From Amphirosellinia nigrospora (Eukaryota; Ascomycota; Sordariomycetes; Xylariales; Xylariaceae), in NCBI GenBank assembly GCA_004123355.1, contig SCHM01000002.1, positions 744,001 through 808,000 on the forward strand: a stretch of 64,000 bases of DNA, written 5' to 3'. The notes under the pieces are model-generated. The model was given only the letters and a program-made list of their open reading frames with translations, did no database searches and had not been told where the DNA came from. Shown one piece after another: positions 13,711 through 55,015 of the stretch. The position numbers and the translations under genes are program-made. The first letter of the stretch is position 1, and each line of letters begins with the position of its first letter.

Positions 13711-15087
13711 GATAGACCTTGATTAATTGCAGAGCTAGTGAGATACATAATCGAAACGCTCCGGTCGGTTTTTGTAAGCAAATCAAGCCTCACGATGGCA
13801 CGAATTAGTCTGTGCACAGTACTTGTGAGGCTCCCTCGAGATTAGAGAGTAAGGTGAACGACTATCACGTTCCATACACGCACGTCGGTTAATTACTGGT
13901 AGGATCTACATCTTAATCGACATACACTCCTAGAGATAGATTATGCAAAGAGTTACTACTTTTAACTGCTACTGAACGGAAGCGAGGAACTGCCTGAGGT
14001 CTCTATCCTTCTACATAGGCTCCGTGGTGATGTGTGAAACCTTTAGCCTCGCAATTTTAGAACTCGAGAGCCCTCGGTTTAGATATATAGCGGGAAATTC
14101 TCCCCATCACTTGTCGGTTACTTGACGACCGGGAATAAAGTAAATATATCTATCACCACTATTACTATTACAGTACTTATTTACCCTTCGCCTCGTCCCT
14201 CGACCACCGCCATGATAAATGGTTGCAAGCGTAGCCTCAGGAAACCTAGACTGCCTTTCTAGACTCTCTTGCCTCGGAATCCAACACAATCGAAACTGAT
14301 ACAAATTTCCCCAGCGCAGTGCCTACTATTATGGTGCCACCCGGTGGTGAAGTGACAAGGGCTTGTGTTCAAGTGCTTGGAAATTGGAGTTCAATTCAGT
14401 TAATAATCTCTTTGGGTCTCTAAGGGCTTTGGTTTCCTTACTCGGACTTGGATGTAACACCTCTCCCATACCCTCAATTTATAGACGAATTCTAGGACCT
14501 TGTTCTCCTCGCAGGCCTCCGACGGTATGACTCCTCGAGAATGCTATTCTGCCACTATGCTTATGTCTTAACCCACTATAATGATTAGAGTGAAACTGGC
14601 CTCCTGGACTCTCCAAGACTCTATGTGGCGCCTGTGGCTATGTCCTTTCGCTGGTCAGTGTGACAGTGTTGACAAACACAAACTAGGCGAAGGCTAGCTC
14701 TCCACGACCGCGCCCGTGCTTCAAGGTGTACAAGGTATGCAGTCCACGGATGAAGGTGTTACGATTACCGCAACGAACCCCGGCCGTCGCCCAAGAACCA
14801 TAAATATCGACGCGAATAAGCGAGTTCGTGTTGTTCCGGGAAAGAATTTCAACACATGTGCCTCCCCATAACTCCATTTATTGCCCTCGCTAGTCTATTT
14901 ATCGGTTGACTTGTCAGATGATAGATCCTCCCATGACGTAGATACGGTACGTTCAACAAGCTTACACACGATGGTAAATTATAAGTGGCAAAGGTTTACA
15001 TCGACCGCATTGATATGTAAGAACAAAGGTGCCAAGGAGGTTGGGGCAAGGGGAATGTTTCAATGATGTTAGCATTTTCTCTATAAT

Positions 15088-37106: not shown

Positions 37107-38730
37107 CTAAGAATGAGTCTGTCGTAGTTGAGCAATGAGCTGGGCTGCCTGAAGCCCAGACTGAAGTAGCCCTAACGTGAACGTGAGTAAACCAAATGCG
37201 ATGACTGCCCAGAATGTCCAGTGCCTTTCAGTGTTCCTCCGGTCCCGCCACAGCCCACGCCAATTGACCGGATTCTGTGTTAGAACAAAGTCCTGGAGTT
37301 CTAATAGGCGCTTTCCAAGGAAGGGGAACTCTTCTCGAGTCTGATATGAGATCTTCACCGGGTCCATTGCGACGTCGTAATACACCCCTTGCTCTCTCCA
37401 GTCCTGCTTACATAGAGTATCAAGTAATGGATCGTCGTAGGGGGTGGCTGTCTCGTCGTGCTGTGTCCTCCGATCCTTCAACGAGGAGTAGGCTTTCCAA
37501 GACTTTTTGTCTTGCCCAAATATGATACGAAAGGACGACAGAATCTCTTTGTAAAAGTCAACGGCCGCGATCTGGGTGATATCGCTGTCGTGTCCCTCTT
37601 CGTCGTCAAAACTTGGCTGAAGAAAGTTCCGAAAAAAGCTTACCGAAGGAAAGAAATGTTAGTGAGTATATTGTTAATGAGAAGTGAAGCCTTACCGGTC
37701 GAGAAATGATGAGGGCTGCCTCGGCCGCGCCGCGGTGCATACCATGGCACAGAATGAGGGATGGCAAAACATGTACAGCCATTTGTTCCTCGTGTCAAGT
37801 TCGAGATGCCTGGTTGCCGACTCCGTCCAAATTATACGCACCTTGATGAGTTTGGAAAGGGTATAGAAGTTGATGGTCGGGGAAGAAAGGGCAAAGTTGC
37901 CCGCAACACCCCTTGACGTCATGAAATATGAGCGGCCGTCTTCGCGAGCCCTAGACAGCATAGGTAATGGGTCATTTGGGTCACAAAATCTTTTCAGAAT
38001 ATTCTTCATGGTGAGATCAGCGGACGCGCCAATCTCGATTTGAGAGGGTCTCAAACTTCGAGGAGATGTAGCCTGTGGAATAACGGTCTGGAACAACGCG
38101 CGCTCTGGGTCTAGTTTAGGGGTGTAGAGAAATGTAAGAAATCCAAAGCAAATAAAAACAAGTTGCGATGCCTCATCCGAGTCATTTGCGTCACTCTTGA
38201 TGAGACCTCTTTGCTTTAGTTCATCCAGAATGTGGGCAATTGCCAGGTTATCCTTGGTGTCAAGGAGCACCGCAATGAGCCCTAGACATTTGAACACATC
38301 GTTTCTGATACCTTCAAACCTCTCTCCTCCAGAGGCTTCGTTTGTGGATAATAAACCCCCGGTGAGACGAAATGGCAACTTCCTAATCTTAAAGTCTAAG
38401 AACCCAATGTACCATTCCGCATATCGTTGACAATCTTCACCGTCACATCGCAGCAGCCGTAGAAAGTTGTCCACATCTGTTTATAGCATCACCAGAGAAA
38501 AATCAGCCTCTAGGTTCAGTAAACTTCCGGAAGTGATCGAATATGGATGCTTGACATACATGTCTTGTTCTCAGCTCCGATGTTCTCGCGATAGCGGCTA
38601 AGTTCCAATTGATACGCCGTCGACCCACGACTGTTTAATCTAATCAGATGTACTTTTTAATTATAAGATCCTGAAGTATAGCGGAGGGCTCGACAAACCT
38701 CCAACGTCTCTGAAAAAATGTGGCAAGCAT
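37107..38730 (-). CDS. Helical protein with C-terminal membrane segment, divergent neighbour of the NLR
   Basis: A family of uncharacterised fungal proteins. The start at 38730 gives MLATFFQRRWR. A first intron (about 38640-38697) joins in frame to LNSRGSTAYQLELSRYRENI, and a second (about 38476-38557) joins in frame to YVDNFLRLLRCDGEDCQRYA. A 260-residue helical domain follows (LGLIAVLLDTKDNLAIAHIL, DASQ-type loops, MLSRAREDGRSYFMTSRG), then TINFYTLSKLIKVRIIWTES and RHLELDTRNKWLYMFCHPSF. A third intron near 37630-37694, with a probable one-base error, leads to DITQIAAVDFYKEILSSFRI, DPLLDTLCKQDW and a membrane helix FWAVIAFGLLTFTLGLLQSG near the C-terminus (stop 37107). Unlike most genes here the first two introns splice cleanly. 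Function is unknown; the divergent promoter shared with a STAND gene is suggestive. Confidence 0.72.
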
Positions 38731-39098
38731 GGTAGCTGTTGGAAGACAACTGCGCAGCGGAACAGCCAATCAATAGTTGAAAAGAACGCATAGAAATATA
38801 TCAAGATTTGCAAGGCATTGTTAAGTACCAGTCAGGGAGTCGGGGCTCAGCCCGTCGAGTTGTAGGCTATACAGAGCAATGCAGTAGGAGCAAATGGCCC
38901 CTGGTACGAGGCGCTGTCAGAAAGTCGTTTAAATCCCCGCAGATCCCAAAGCTGACACATTTCAACCCTGCCATTCCCTCTTTTACCACCAAGCACGTGT
39001 ATATATACCTCTGATGTGTACAGGCTACCGCTAGTTAAATTCTCAAGACCATCATAATTCCTGAAATATTCGCATGCTTTTCCATATATCTACCTTAA
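38731..39098. promoter_or_regulatory. 368-bp bidirectional promoter region
   Basis: It separates the start codons of the minus-strand membrane protein gene and the plus-strand NB-ARC gene. On the NLR side a TATATATA element at 38999-39006 lies about 95 bp before the ATG, preceded by CACGTG. Co-expression of the pair is inferred. Confidence 0.5.
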
Positions 39099-42000
39099 AT
39101 GGCGTCTAACCGCAACGATGCTGCGCTGCCAGTGAATGCAAGCCAAAGTTCTTCACACCCAGAGCCAAGCTGCAGCCTCACAATCAAGTTCCACTAACGA
39201 TATCGGAGGACGATATCCTATCGCTTCGATCTAAATGGAAAGAAGCTGTTGACAAATGGGAGGAAAAGCTAGTGACATCAAACAGCTGGAAAGAAAACCC
39301 GTATCGAAACGCGATCAAGGAGTTCAAATCATGGCAAGACCTGCTGAGCGACCTCAAGCGCCGTCAAGCTGAAGGACAAGCATCAGCGTGGCACCCACTT
39401 GTAAACCGCATTATGCCGACCATGAAGACGATCAGCAAGCTCTTTCCCATACTCGTCGCGGCTATAGCAGTGCCTGGCGGCTCAAAAGAGGTCGCTGTGC
39501 TGTGGGCTTTCTTGTATCTCGGGGTCAAGGCAATGACAACGATGAAGGCTTCGTCGGCAGAGTTGTCTAAGATGATCGACAAATTGGAGACTAAACTCAG
39601 GGATTTCGACCGGTGCACCAATTTTCTATTGACGTACTCAAAAAATGAGGATAGCTGCCGAGAAATTGCGTCCGCGATAGTCTGCATGTTTGAGGCAATC
39701 ATTAGCTTCTGGGTACAGGCGGTAATTGCCTTAGAGGGCAACAGAGGTAAATTTTGACCGTTTTGCAGTACTAACTCTCTATTTGTACCTGTTAACCCAC
39801 TTCCTTAGATATTCAGTGGCCGAGTTTCAATAAGAAATCTCACGAAGCATTAACGGACGCCACTGAGGCAGTCGATAGGATTTCCTCCGTTTCAAACATA
39901 TTGGGAATTTTAGGTGCCCAGAAAGCCCTCCCCATTACTGAAGACGAATCTAAGGCAGCTGGCGCCAACCTCCCCTGCTTTTGCCTGCCACCCCCGCGAA
40001 ACTTCTTTCATGGAAGGGTTGAAACCATTGAGGCAATGCGAGACCACTTATGTAGCCCAGATAAGAAGACCTTCTGCCGCTCGTTTGCCGTGTATGGAAC
40101 ACCTGGGACCGGGAAAACGGGGCTTGCTCTCCATTTTGCCTATCGTTGCGTCGACGAGAAACTATTCGACGTAATCCTGTGGATCAGGGCTGAGACTGAC
40201 ACAGCGTGCAAACAGAGCTTTAAAGATGCGGAACTTAGACTTGGACTTACTCCCAGTGAGGACCACGATGCGAGCATTAGCGCCGTTATTACAGAGCTAC
40301 GCAAAATCAAGAAGTGGCTCATCATCTATGACAACCTTGAGCAACTAGAAGTCATCGAGCATTGCCTGCCGTTACGCTCCGTTGCCGGATCCATTCTCCT
40401 CACAACTAGGTACAGGCATATAGCTGTCAAGTTCGAAGGAGATAACCTGTCAAGGGAACTCCTCCCTTTCAATGACTATGATACAATTGCAGTTTTCAAC
40501 GGCTTTCGTAGCGTGTATCACCAAGATAGTGCCTCGCCAGTCAATCAGGTAGTAGCAGACCATGGAGAAGACGCCCAATATATCATCCAGGTGGTTGGTG
40601 GGCTTGCCCTGGGTATTGAGCACATTGCGGCGTACATGGAGAACGACCGACTCACCGTCGCGCAGTTCCGAAGAAACTATGAGAGGATGACAGCCATAAT
40701 CCATAAGAAAGAGAGTACGGGCAGCCAAGCCCCACACACCATTGACACCCTGTGGGAAATGGCTTTGACTCAGGCGGAACAGGCCGGCCCAGAGACCTTT
40801 GGCCTTCTTCAAGTCTTAGCTTTTCTTGCGCCCGACAACGTTTCTTTGCGCTTGTTTCCGTGCGACGACAACTTGGAGTGGACGGACTTTGACCAAGACC
40901 TTACAGAATTCACATTCTTCTGTAATTCCATAGAAAAGTAAAAATCATAACTTGCTCTTGTGCCGATTGAGTCTTCCGCTAACTGTCTTCTTTACCATCG
41001 ATAGCCTTGATACAGCCGTCACCCAACTGCAACGCCTCGCTCTGGTCCGCCGACTATCTGGCGACACAATATCAATACACCGACTGCTTCAGAAGTCCAT
41101 ATTTTATAAACTTGACCAGCAAAGTCGACAAAAGGTGTTCGATGTTGCATCGAAGCTAGTAAATATGTCATTCCCCAAACAGATCAATGATGAACCACTT
41201 GGAGACCGATGGGACGAATGCCAAGACTATATTGAACACGCCCAGACGTTGGCCAGTCTCCTAAAGATTCCCTGTCCTGGAAAAGGGTCTGGGCTGAGAG
41301 CATCCGAGGATCTGCAAGAACTAATGACCAATTCTACGTGGTATATCGCTCAAGAGTGCCGTAAAGTTTGAAGCTGACATGCCGTTAGGTATCTCTACGA
41401 GAGTGGAAATCTCAAGGCTGCCTACAGCTTAGTGGAAGAGGCAAGGCAGATGTTTCCAGACCGCGATAACTCCCTCCACTATGCGCATCTCTGTAACACC
41501 GCCGCCGTCATATATTTTGACTGGAACCAGCTGAAGAAAAGTGAAGATGAGCATATGAGATGCCTCCGAATTCGATCAAACTACTGCCTGAGAACCATCT
41601 TCTCATTAGTTCGACCATCATGAACCTAGGTCAGGTATACAGCGCCTTGGGGAGGTTTACCAAGCAGAACAGAAGTTCGAGGAGTATCGCCAAATGAACC
41701 TCCGAACCGGTCTACCAGTGATGGTTCAGTCTCACGGACTTGACTGTATGATCATTGGCAGAGCGCTTTTTCTACAGAATAGACTCGGAGAGGCAAGAAA
41801 AAGCTTCGATGAGAGCCGGCGCTGTCTCATCGAGGCGTTCGGAGACAGCTCTGTTCTTCTAGCATAGTGAGCCACCAACCAGTACACTTTGCAATGTCCT
41901 CATCTAGCACGCTAACTTGATAACCCATCTTCTCCAGCCTGATGCTTGCCTACGGTAATCTTGAGTTAGCAGATAATGACATTACCGAGGCACAAATAGC

Positions 42001-42467
42001 ATACCAAGAAGGATACGCGATGGCGCAATATCTCGCTCCGACGCATGGCCTAATCGCGGCACTTCACTACAAACTGGCGTTTGTGCATCACGTTCTCGGG
42101 AACTACGAACTAGGCCTGTAAGTTGCAGCTCTAACCAAGCCAGTGCACTTTGGATGCCTTGCTAAACCTGTTTCTAACATGTCCGCCTGGTCTTAGGTCT
42201 CATTGCAAGGCCGGAATTCCTATTGCAGACCTCCGCCAGCTACGCGGCGATAAAGCAAGGCTTCTTTATCTCAAGTCTCTCTGTTTCGACGGCCTCGCAG
42301 CGAAGGGCCGGCTTTGGGAGGATACAGACCACGATGATGCAGCCGAACTCCGCAGACAGGCAGAGCTTGAAAAAGACAAGCTACTAGAGATTCAAGATAT
42401 AGCCATATCGCCAGGGTGGCCAAATGACGAGGTCTACGATCATCTTGTCTGTGCTTACGTGAGGTGA
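39099..42467 (+). CDS. STAND/NLR-type NB-ARC protein with TPR-like repeats
   Basis: Fungal NLR-like signal-transduction ATPase, a class linked to non-self recognition and programmed cell death. The start at 39099 gives MASNRNDAALPVNASQSSS. A one-base change near 39165 enters ISEDDILSLRSKWKEAVDKW and a helical N-terminal domain (AVLWAFLYLGVKAMTTMKAS), resembling those that precede NB-ARC in fungal STAND proteins (DUF7708-like). Intron 39747-39808 joins to the NB-ARC: FFHGRVETIEAM, P-loop VYGTPGTGKTGLALHFAYR at 40090-40145, Walker B WLIIYDNLEQLE at 40315-40350, RNBS-B GSILLTTRYRH, and the GLPL-equivalent VGGLALGIEHIAAYM. The winged-helix part is TLWEMALTQAEQAGPETFGL. Intron 40938-41004 joins in frame to NLDTAVTQLQRLALVRRL. 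The C-terminal half is TPR-like (NLKAAYSLVEEARQMF, LGQVYSALGRF, LAYGNLELADNDITEAQIAY, ALHYKLAFVHHVLGNYELGL). It ends EVYDHLVCAYVR. Confidence 0.85.
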
Positions 42468-43213
42468 TCCAAGAGCTTATCGGTACTCGATAAGTGGTCG
42501 TTGCCTACCTACCTGGTCGCTAGGACCAAGCGCACGTATGATTCGTATCTGGTTTATATTTGCTGGTTGCTGGTTGCAGCGCTGTTATTCTATGCTGACT
42601 TTATCACGCAGGTATGGTATTCTCACGGCAACTGAGACCTCCCTAGAATTGATGGCTCTGAGGATGACGGGGGTCTGCAGGAGATTCGATTGTCGCAAAG
42701 AAATGTTGTGAACTCCCTAATATTACCCGTAATCCTTACTGCCACGCGCACAGACTACCCCAATTGCACACGAGCAAAACAACTTCAAGATCGAGTACGA
42801 TATTTTGGAATTTTATAACCATTAAGAGCTTAAACGCAATCCCGAAGGGTCAATTGAATAGCCCAGTGTGCGGCGCATCGCCTAGTGCGCCTACCTAATA
42901 AAGCACTACAGCGACCTTGTGGCCCTAGGTAAGGGCATGGCCGACCGAAGCACGCGAGCATGCTATATATTTCAATAAGTATTTTCAAGACGCCTTTTTT
43001 GCGTAGAGCAAGCTTAGGACTAACCTGTCCTGCTAATATTTAGGTAACTAAGTCGACGCTCTCAAGAATGTTTGTCCTTAGTTGCGAAAATATAAAGCAT
43101 GCCCGATGTCCGATTTGTTTAAAACGAAGTGTAAAAAGCTGCAAATGCAAGGGAGACGACTAATGTTTCACTGCCTCAGCCCTACTTCCTCGCTACAAGC
43201 CCCAAGTATCTTC
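42468..43213. other. Spacer between the two STAND-related genes
   Basis: 746 bp with no coding signal, holding the terminator side of the NLR and the promoter of the next gene. A 14-16 base GCTGGTTGC near-duplication occurs at 42560-42580. Confidence 0.5.
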
Positions 43214-44658
43214 ATGGCCATCTCTGAGGACTTTGCTAACACAAAATTCAGCATTTTCTAAGGCGGTAGTTTGGATAGCCCAGAATGTAGGCACTTCAAT
43301 GAAAAGACACGAGGATCTCATCATCAAACTCCAAGACACATTGTTTCAAGTCCTCTGTCATACGGAACACCCACAGGACCTAGCCACAGGAGCCACACAG
43401 ACTCCCGGATATCCCTCCGACTTGGTCAAAGCAGCCTCAGCCCCTCTCGAGGAGTCATGCCTTCAGAGGCCTGCGAGGAGGCAAAGGTCCTAGGAATTCG
43501 TCTATAAATTGAGGATTTGGGCGAGGTTACATTGAAGTCATAATTAGGAAATCAGAGCCCCTTCGAGACCCCAAAGAGATTATTAGCTGAATTGAACTCC
43601 AAATTCCAGGAACTTGAGCACAAGCCCTTGTCACACATAGAGATGGAACAAAGCGGCCTAGAGCAGGCGGCACTATCTAAACGTCGCCTCCGGGAGAAGA
43701 GCAGTCGCGCAGCGTCTAAGTGGCTCTCTGGACTGAAAGGTTTCGACCATGACTCGATGACAGATATCAATGACTGCTTAACACACATGGAACAGCTGGA
43801 TAGCGACGAAAAGAGCGTATCAGGACGGATCACAGATTCAGACGAATTTAACGGTTGGCTTCAGAATAAACGATCATGCTTCCTCATAGTCGACCTACAG
43901 ACGCCACAAAACGAGCTCAATAACCCTTTATCATTCACGAGCGCCGTACTAGCGATCACTTTGCGGAGCACTCAGAGATACCCCGTGTTGTCGTATTTTT
44001 GTATGGATCGAAACAACGAATTCCCAGATGACATGATATCAGGGCCTCTAGGCATGATCAAAAGTCTCGACGGACAGCTTCTAGAGTTCATGAACAAATA
44101 TCGACCAGATTCAAATGTCGCGCTACTGAAAAGGGAAGAATTCTATATCAAGTCCAAGGAAAAACTCAAACACGGGTATCTCTGCTGCAGGCTCTGATAT
44201 CCCTTCTACCTGAAGGTGACACCGTCTTCATTATCCTGGACTGCTTGTCATGTCTTTCAGGCGATGAAGAAAGAGGTCACAAGTTGATGATCGCCTTGAA
44301 TGATATTATAAAGTCCCAGAAACGCATTTCTATTAGGGTCTTAGTAACTGATCCTAGTGCGGACTCGCCACTCAGGAAGATCGCGAAACGGCAACTACAC
44401 TTACTAGATACTGCCAGTGGTGGCGATACAATAGATTTCGACGACACAACGCAGAGGATCCGTAAGGGATTGGCGGATGGCCATCACGCCGATGATGTAG
44501 ACAGAGAGGATGCCTCTAAGAACAGCGGCCATACTGAAGATCAAAGCGACAGCAGCAGTGGCGATGATGACGAAGAGGGCAGCGGCAGTAGTAGGGACGA
44601 TGAGAATGAAGATGAGGAAGACGAGGATGAAGATAACAGTGACGATAGTGATGAATGA
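43214..44658 (+). CDS. NACHT-like STAND-core protein lacking a P-loop, acidic tail
   Basis: I recognise the layout of a fungal family that resembles the nucleotide-binding core of STAND proteins without the Walker A lysine. The start at 43214 gives MAISEDFANTKFS. A frame change near 43255 leads to SKAVVWIAQNVGTSMKRHED and LIIKLQDTLFQ. A second change enters RISLRLGQSSLSPSRGVM and EACEEAKVLGIR. The next block is SPFETPKRLLAELNSKFQEL, then RLREKSSRAASKWLSGLKG. The core begins FNGWLQNKRSCFLIVDLQTP: at the usual GxxxxGKS position there is TPQNELNNPLSF. RYPVLSYFCMDRNNEF follows, then a shift to TVFIILDCLSCLSGDEERG (Walker B-like) and RISIRVLVTDPSADSPLRKI (sensor-like strand). The C-terminus is about 60 residues of Asp/Glu/Ser. 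It is the same-strand neighbour of the NB-ARC gene, so the two may act together (inference). Confidence 0.65.
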
Positions 44659-52561: not shown

Positions 52562-55015
52562 ATGATCACCACAAGACTAGCCGTGTGCCTTTTCCCGGCT
52601 TGGGCACTGGCCCAAAGCAGTGTGAAATGTAAGCTTCATTTTTCTCAGTCCTGCTAGTGACGCTCCTAAGACATGAAATTATGTCGTGTTGAGCTCAATT
52701 GATGATTTGATTCTTACCAATTGATTTCAGATATCACTGTTCAGGATGGTCCTGCGCCTTCTTTCTCCCTGTCTTCGTCCAACATCTCATACCAGTTCCA
52801 CGTCGACCCTTTAACGTTAGACCTGATTCACGACCACTGGGGTGGGTACGCGGCAGAGACTGTTCCTCAAGAGATCGGCAGCACGGGTGGTTGGGGTGGT
52901 GATTAGTGAGTAACTCCAAGTACCCCAGTAATCAATACAATGCATATTGATATAAGTCAGCACCTACCGGCTTCGCGAGTTCCCTGACTTAGGCCGAGGC
53001 GACTTTCGGGCACCGGCCATTCACATCCAACACGCTTCGGGGGACACCGTTTCTGCCTTTGCATACACAGGTTATGAGGTCAAGGCCGGCAAACCTAGCC
53101 TTCCCGGACTCCCCGCCACGTATGGCGAAGACGACGATGTCTCAACTCTTATAGTTCATCTGCGCGATGACTATGCTGCTATCTCAGCCGATCTTTACTA
53201 CTCGATCTTCCCAAGGCACAACGCTATCGCCCGTAGCTTCCGTCTCACAAACAAGGGCAATAGCACCGCCAGCGTTCTAAGAGCGAGCAGTTGGAGCATT
53301 GACATGCCAAATGAAGAGCTCGATCTGATTGACCTCCGTGGAGACTGGGCTAATGAGGCTCACCTTAACAGACGTTCAGTCGAATGGGGCGAGCAAGGGT
53401 AAGCGGAGAACGCGTCGTATTTTCCTCGATATTTGACTGATTTATTCGTTCTATAGCTTCGGGTCAACCGCGGGTTACTCTTCACACTTCCACAACCCAT
53501 TCTTCGCGCTTGCTCCTCCTAGCACCACAGAGTCCCAGGGTTCGGCAACCGGCTATTCTCTGATTTACACAGGTTCGTTCGCCGCAAACGTCGAGCGATG
53601 GTCGACGGGCTGGGTGCGAGTACTTCTCGGTCTCAACCCAATACACCTGTCATGGCCACTGAAGGCGGGAGACACCTTCATTTCCCCTGAAGTCGTCTCA
53701 GTATACTCCGAGAACGGTTTCAGCGGCATGTCACAATCGCTACACTCTTTGTTCAAGCACCAACTATCGCGCTCGAACCACACATGGGAGACACGGCCAG
53801 CTCTACTCAACTCATGGGAGGGTCTGGGCTTCGACTACAACGCTACCGCCATGGTAGACCTGGCAAAAGGAGCCGCTGATCTCGGCTGCACGCTATTTGT
53901 GAACGACGATGGCTGGTTTGGCAATGACTACCCCCGCGACAACGACACGGAAGGACTGGGCGACTGGACGCCTCAGAAGAAGAAGTTCCCCGAAGGACTA
54001 GGCCCATACGTCGAGGACGTGAACGATATAAGCGTATCCAACTCAAGCAAAATGAGTTTCGGTCTATGGGTTGAGCCCGAGATGGTGAACCCATTGTCAG
54101 ACCTATACAAGGAACACCCAGACTGGGTCTTGCACGCCGGAAACCACAACCGTACACTGGTTCGTCACCAGCTCGTGCTGAACCTTGGACTCAAAGAGGT
54201 GCAGGACTACATCATCAACACGATCGAGAAGATCCTCGACTCAGCAAATATCAAATACATCAAATGGGACAACAACCGTGGCCAGCACGAGATGTCCTCC
54301 CCCGCCGACAACTACGCCTATATCCTGGGTATGTACCGCGTCATCGACAACCTCACGACGGCGCACCCCGAGATCATCTGGGAAGGCTGCGCGTCGGGCG
54401 GTGGCCGCTTCGACGCGGGTCTGCTGCACTACTGGCCGCAGAGCTGGACGTCCGATAACACGGACGGGCTCGACAGACTGCAGATCCAATTCGGCACGTC
54501 ATACGCCTACCCGCCTTCGGCGATGGGCTGCCACGTCAGCGCCGTGCCCAACGGCCAAGTCGGGCGCATAACCCCCTGCGGTTCCGCTCCGCAGTAGCCA
54601 GCATGTGCGGCTCATACGGGCTGGAGCTCGACCCCAAGGATCTGACCGACGACGAGCGCGACGTGATCCCGGGCCTGGTCGCCCTGCAGCAGGAGATCAA
54701 CCCGCTGGTGATCAACGGCGACTTCTACCGCCTGGCGCTCCCGACCAGTCGAACTGGCCCGCGGCCATGTTCGCGCTGCCCGACGCCAGCAAGGCCGTGC
54801 TGTTCGCTTTCCAGGTCCGCTCCGGCACCAAGCCCTTTGCCGGGCCCGTCAAGCTGAGGGGTCTCGATGCGAGCGCCAAGTACCAGCTTACGAGCGATGA
54901 CTTCAATGACTATAATGCTACGTACTCTGGCTCTACGCTCATGAATTCGGGACTGAGCCTGCAGTGGCCGACTGCGGATTACCAGAGCTATATTATTAAA
55001 CTGGAGAAAATGTAA
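52562..55015 (+). CDS. Secreted alpha-galactosidase, GH36 (AglC-like)
   Basis: Hydrolyses alpha-1,6-linked galactose from raffinose-family oligosaccharides and galactomannan, outside the cell. The signal peptide is MITTRLAVCLFPAWALAQ. Introns at 52630-52729, about 52906-52960, and 53400-53457 are bounded by GT...AG. The N-terminal beta-domain has YQFHVDPLTLDLIHDHWGGY, TYRLRELPDLGRGDFRAPA and HIQHASGDTVSAFAYTGYEV. The catalytic barrel carries RPALLNSWEGLGFDYN, LFVNDDGWFGNDYPRDN, FGLWVEPEMVNPLSDLYKEH, the nucleophile region IKYIKWDNNRGQHE (Asp) near 54255, IIWEGCASGGGRFDAG, and the acid/base region SWTSDNTDGLDRLQ (Asp) near 54450. Two single-base losses (C run at 54572-54576; GG at about 54749) interrupt an otherwise perfect gene. 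After correction the sequence continues PLRFRSAVASMCGSYGLEL and ALPDQSNWPAAMFALPD to YIIKLEKM. Length (about 740 residues) is normal for the family. Confidence 0.93.

Follow-up and report, generated by a model that had tools for sequence, protein, structure and literature searches.

Regulated cell death in fungi is often encoded by clusters of two or three genes, in which a sensor, either a NOD-like receptor (NLR) or a protease, is joined by an executioner acting at the membrane (PMC10197012, PMC12881547). In the reviews consulted, fungal immune units pair the sensor with an executioner of the HeLo or the gasdermin type. Here, a divergent gene pair is described in a 64,000-nucleotide stretch of the ascomycete Amphirosellinia nigrospora (assembly GCA_004123355.1, contig SCHM01000002.1, positions 744,001 to 808,000), which is referred to as the window. 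The minus-strand gene, named A (38730-37107), encodes a membrane-anchored protein of an unnamed family. The plus-strand gene (39099-42467) encodes an NLR with an NB-ARC domain. The pair is real, and its two genes point away from each other across 368 bp.

The closest described systems resemble this locus in part. In the gasdermin/protease clusters of the HET-Q1/HET-Q2 type, a membrane-acting protein is located beside a protease-bearing or NLR sensor, and the type of the sensor varies by locus (PMC10197012, PMC12881547). A sensor-type neighbor is likewise found for A, namely the NLR in the window and a trypsin-like gene at seven of 11 loci of its family. In contrast to those clusters, A has no gasdermin match in Pfam, and it carries a C-terminal membrane helix, while its partners are trypsin-like or contain NB-ARC without a recognized protease domain, instead of being of the S8 or CHAT type. 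The second group comprises het-S/nwd2 and HELLP/PNT1 (PP-NB-ARC-TPR), in which an NLR, in the case of PNT1 also an NB-ARC-TPR protein, neighbors a membrane-targeting partner (same articles). In those pairs, an amyloid motif is common to the N-terminus of the NLR and its partner. Here, no sequence similarity was found between the two, the N-terminal part of the NLR is long, and A has a membrane helix at its end. The divergent arrangement is also known from the head-to-head NLR pairs and clusters of Sordariales. There, however, NLRs make up both halves of the pair, a rare arrangement with 13 of 225 two-NLR clusters (PMC12258605), while here one of the two genes encodes a membrane protein, and Pfam detected no NB domain in it. 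The titles and abstract openings covered by the literature search contain no description of the A membrane family or of its pairing with a trypsin-like gene or an NLR, and a search aimed at the gene arrangement gave no match; the supplementary neighbor tables of PMC9815663 may hold such pairs.

The divergent pair in the window

Gene A consists of four exons (38730-38699, 38630-38560, 38476-37696 and 37638-37107), which upon splicing and translation give an open frame of 471 amino acids. Its most hydrophobic segment is the C-terminal one, at residues 435-453 with a mean hydropathy of 1.84; the runner-up, at residues 138-156, reaches 1.30. The C-terminal membrane helix that had been read into this gene in an earlier note on the window, made from the letters alone, is thereby borne out. 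The helix is predicted within a C-terminal block together with the motif DRRN..TFW (approximately 37137-37250, minus strand), and the block is kept in the alignments of the family. The only Pfam match of A is PPR_3 at the chance level (E 0.095), and an NB domain was not found by Pfam. Comparison with NCBIfam, PHROGs, PADLOC, PDB and GTDB contigs gave nothing useful, and no relative of A is present among 119 pattern matches in prokaryote contigs. The 368-bp intergenic region common to both genes (38731-39098) contains the TATA-like element already mentioned in the earlier note, TATATATA at 39000-39007.

The NLR gene is composed of seven exons (39099-39131, 39209-39746, 39809-40937, 41005-41340, 41389-41866, 41938-42117 and 42197-42467), the fifth of which carries two breaks of the reading frame. 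Six GT-AG introns can be placed. The main frame can be reached from the first ATG exon only via the intron 39132-39208, which joins positions 39131 and 39209. Two Pfam families exceed the cut-off, NB-ARC (PF00931, E 2.3e-10) and DUF7779 (E 5e-10), and the gene is the top match of the NB-ARC search in its own genome. The Walker A motif of the NB-ARC domain, GTPGTGKT, is encoded at 40097-40120 on the plus strand. The earlier note had described an NB-ARC/TPR receptor. Its NB-ARC part holds, whereas TPR gives weak matches on separate pieces, all below the cut-off (TPR_10 at E 0.011, TPR_12 at E 0.02), in a region split by the frame breaks, and the gene model depends on the spliced first exon. The N-terminal domain of around 235 amino acids, encoded mainly by exon 2 (39209-39746, plus strand), matches no Pfam family above the cut-off, nor any PDB sequence at E<=1.

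A membrane protein family and its changing partners

The family of A was found at 11 loci of the same genome, the window included. The queries were A, the copy at C8 and a portion of the one at C1a; the eleventh locus (C6c) was reached from the protease side. All comparisons are between paralogs of one genome. Two copies entered the family weakly, C7 at E 0.002 and C1d at E 0.013, and the membership of the latter was secured by its match to the C6c member at E 7e-50. The unity of the family is supported by a profile-profile comparison (hhalign), in which the alignment of the three NLR-side copies and that of the protease side (six rows, one of them the HET-side copy) are joined with a probability of 99.6 and E 3e-24. 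Alignments and hydropathy define four hallmarks: an HL block, an LFP/LFGQ block, the DRRN..TFW block and the C-terminal hydrophobic segment. The exact letters DRRN are absent from C1c, C1d, C6b and C6c, and the C7 copy is partial. No Pfam family covers these proteins: in the six relatives scanned, four families appeared once each (OPA1_C at 0.0018, the other three at 0.024 or weaker), and none of the six had a gasdermin match.

At seven of the 11 loci, A and a trypsin-like gene are arranged head to head; one of these partners is weakly identified. In six of them, the open reading frames (ORFs) of the two genes are separated by about 0.3 to 1.3 kb. At C6c, the seventh, an unread stretch of about 1.8 kb lies between them, and the partner is known solely by a 45% match to the GDSG stretch of C1d. 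The nucleophile motif GDSG is present in four of the seven partners, and the triad residues H, D and S fall into invariant columns in the four that were aligned (C1a, C6a, C1d and C7), the aspartate of C7 being possibly misaligned. Among the six partners scanned, the sole protease-family matches in Pfam are two to Trypsin_2, both below the cut-off (E 3.5e-3 and 2.3e-4). A PDB search with a trypsin-like partner led weakly to a serine protease (E 0.09). No S8- or CHAT-type protease was found among the partners, which bear trypsin-type motifs. The least certain of the seven cases is C1c.

The association was also approached from the side of the protease. A search with one trypsin-like partner returned two such genes without a known A, C6:3685366 and C1:2451946. 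A copy of A would be expected a few kilobases upstream on the opposite strand, an expectation that was not recorded beforehand and was examined at one of the two genes. At that gene, C6:3685366, the copy is present on a 2.6-kb piece, and it is the C6c member whose match to C1d is given above. The genome contains further matches to Trypsin_2.

At three of the 11 loci, A is close to an NB-ARC NLR, at a distance of 0.4 kb in the window, 2.9 kb in C1b and 3.4 kb in C8. In terms of the ten loci that were measured, three are within 3.5 kb of such a gene and seven are at least 69 kb from all 48 loci of signal transduction ATPases with numerous domains (STAND). When ten loci were placed at random, three or more within 3.5 kb of the 14 NB-ARC loci never occurred in 200,000 trials, and for all 48 STAND loci they occurred in 8 of 100,000. 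With the window left out, two or more of the nine other loci fell within 3.5 kb of the 13 NB-ARC loci still counted in 57 of 200,000 placements, and within this distance of the 47 STAND loci still counted in 280 of 100,000. The placement model takes no account of compartment effects, and it was run on ten loci, before the eleventh was found.

The three copies near NLRs form one clade of the A tree, with support of 99/98. Correspondence extends to the receptors, as the best paralog of A, in C1b, is located 2.9 kb from the best paralog of the window NLR. The best match between the window and C1b NLRs scores 110.6 bits, against 49.3 bits for any other locus, and the summed scores are about 161 and 113; C1b also came out best in a second comparison. 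These two receptors are sisters at 88/92 in the NLR tree, which covers ten of the 14 NB-ARC loci, the other four lacking usable sequence. One further copy of A, at C4:2657471, has a divergent HET-domain gene about 2.5 kb away, the only such neighbor among the 11 loci; this copy is decayed and lies within a 10-kb piece of 31% GC.

The surroundings of the paralogous copies contain several other features. Just past the truncated C1b copy, there is a 6.6-kb stretch of 9.7% GC (C1:13027900-13034500, L078), perhaps a heavily mutated repeat block. The C-terminal part of the C1a partner (L070 422-2632, C1:7727621-7729831) also occurs at C5:7073897 and C8:763223. An ORF with an RHS_repeat match (Pfam E 1.5e-8) is encoded on the minus strand close to one A/trypsin-like pair (L076 6322-7362, C1:12023821-12024861). 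Upstream of the C8 copy and divergent from it, a possible oxygenase-like gene is present on the minus strand (C8:1066183-1067100, L077), perhaps CmcJ-like; the tested piece has no Pfam match.

Possible roles of A and competing explanations

The divergent A/NLR genes are probably functional as a pair. A wider reading, which we consider evenly balanced between right and wrong, is that they make up a two-gene unit, and that the A family is usually divergent from a sensor-type partner that switches the membrane-acting A. Such a membrane family with an exchangeable divergent partner goes beyond the earlier note. By analogy with the described systems, A is perhaps the membrane executioner of swappable sensors. 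In the proposed order of events, the partner would detect a non-self or danger cue. An NLR might receive it through its repeat domain and respond with NB-ARC oligomerization, while a protease-like partner might act through extra domains or by cleavage. The triggered partner would then switch A, which would act at the membrane, most likely as the executioner of localized cell death or of the shut-off of a compartment. What the data show directly is the family with its clades and kinds of partner, the divergent arrangement and the hydrophobic C-terminal segment; sensing, activation, cell death and the function of A are inferred. The most specific version is tentative and, in our judgment, somewhat less probable than its opposite: A would be the executioner of a so far undescribed system of cell death or non-self recognition, in which one family is plugged head to head into trypsin-like proteases at most loci, NB-ARC NLRs in one clade and perhaps HET-domain proteins. 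If true, the partner-swapping logic would be general, with another membrane family keeping the divergent arrangement while the partner changes between protease-like and NLR. The arrangement of genes would then suffice as a guide to further sensors, and about a dozen loci of a single genome would allow direct tests of what lies downstream of fungal NLRs.

A number of observations weigh against this interpretation, beginning with its basis in a single genome. A direct head-to-head position with an NLR is seen for the window copy alone; an aldo/keto reductase gene intervenes in C1b and a peptidase M49 gene in C8, and the C1b copy itself appears to be cut short on its 5′ side by AT-rich sequence. 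The fork uniting the window and C1b receptors falls short of the starred level, with C1b as a long branch in that tree. The C8 receptor sits in another NLR group (98/98), so at C8 the link may have arisen by a later swap or by chance, and the three A-adjacent NLRs do not cluster as a group, with 113 of 500 shuffles reaching a value as low. The labeling of the A clade was equaled by 13 of 500 label shuffles, and by 16 of 500 in a second tree of ten of the 11 loci, which omits C7 because of its long branch. On the protease side, the nucleophile motif is degenerate in C7 (GSSG) and C1c (GVSG), and Trypsin_2 was not matched in C1d, C6b, C1c and C7, four of the six partners scanned. Gasdermin, HeLo and Goodbye have no Pfam match in A or in the NLR N-terminus. 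The earlier note had held that independent occurrence of the families in other genomes would speak against a common module. The A and NLR families do also occur apart, since most copies of A adjoin a trypsin-like gene and no A is found near 11 of the 14 NB-ARC loci. A hand-over of the amyloid type from the NLR to A is not supported, because the N-terminus of the NLR and A are not similar by BLASTP (best E 0.82), a comparison made without an amyloid-motif model.

The main rival explanation assigns to A a guarded or regulatory role: the partner would monitor A, and death or signaling would come from the partner's own N-terminal domain. The NLR indeed keeps such a domain of its own, in contrast to the short signaling motifs with which some NLRs call on a separate executioner, and A offers one terminal hydrophobic segment and no recognized toxic domain. 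On the other hand, the same family accompanies trypsin-like partners that have no N-terminal domain of this kind, for which a common downstream role fits better than a guarded one; this is an argument and not a test. We consider the guarded role rather unlikely. It is a little less probable still that a real two-gene system exists only in the A-trypsin pairs and that the NLRs are neighbors by chance, or through a shared accessory region, without a common function. The intervening genes in two of the three cases, the scattered position of the three receptors and a placement model blind to a possible preference of both gene kinds for accessory regions are in keeping with that view. It is opposed by the low frequency of chance placements even when the window is omitted, by the single clade of NLR-associated A genes and by the adjacency of best paralog to best paralog.

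The possibility that the window locus is a decaying relic, in which the NLR is a pseudogene, the third gene downstream was destroyed by a repeat insertion and nothing functions, is considered improbable, the more so than the two explanations above. It draws on the two breaks in exon 5 of the NLR, near 41583 and 41662, and on the interruption of the third gene, while A is open over its four exons and the introns of the NLR remain placeable. In a control with Cpn60/TCP-1 genes of the same genome, six of ten CCT/Hsp60 loci shift frame without room for an intron, and the alpha-galactosidase gene of the window (53437-55012) also shifts frame, its Melibiase match going on in a second frame and its C-terminal domain lying in a third. 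Many small indels thus seem to be present in this assembly. Because the chaperonin loci are equally broken, sequencing error is a likelier source of the NLR breaks than decay, and a pseudogene status of the NLR was not accepted. The breaks could nevertheless be real, which counts against the two-gene unit. Since frame breaks affect even essential chaperonin genes, any pseudogene call from this genome demands care.

The third gene and a dispersed repeat

The earlier note had joined A and the NLR with a second STAND-like gene at 43214-44658 into a three-gene module. The A/NLR part of that grouping survives, with three loci within 3.5 kb, one clade of A and sister receptors, and the third member drops out. 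What is present at 43164-44658 on the plus strand are the remains of an interrupted gene outside the unit. The ATG at 43214 is open for only 15 codons, and a repeat splits the ORFs, as does another frame break near 44168. The window pieces have no good Pfam match and none to NPHP3_N. Their STAND-like, P-loop-less nature is supported only indirectly, via a 27%-identical relative at C5:8369409, which matches NPHP3_N (PF24883, E 1.5e-11). Within 300 kb of the two C5 relatives, no NB-ARC or NACHT gene is listed. As the gene is interrupted by a repeat and its real relatives lack a nearby listed NLR, it was left out of the unit, and the three-gene module was rejected.

The interrupting element is a copy of a dispersed repeat at about 43356-43640 (plus strand). 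One ORF piece of the third gene gave 84 translated matches, comprising itself, two real relatives on C5 and 81 matches to the repeat, all of which fall in the first part of the piece. By blastn, repeat DNA was detected in 28 of 29 fetched loci, with the longest block per locus 77-94% identical; the single miss, L037, is a real relative of the third gene, the one that matches NPHP3_N. In an alignment of 13 rows, the 3′ end is sharp and the 5′ end less uniform. The repeat is short (about 285-400 bp), its ends lie near TGTCACAC.. and ..CCCTTGTCACA, and a second copy is found in the window at 14352-14666 on the minus strand.

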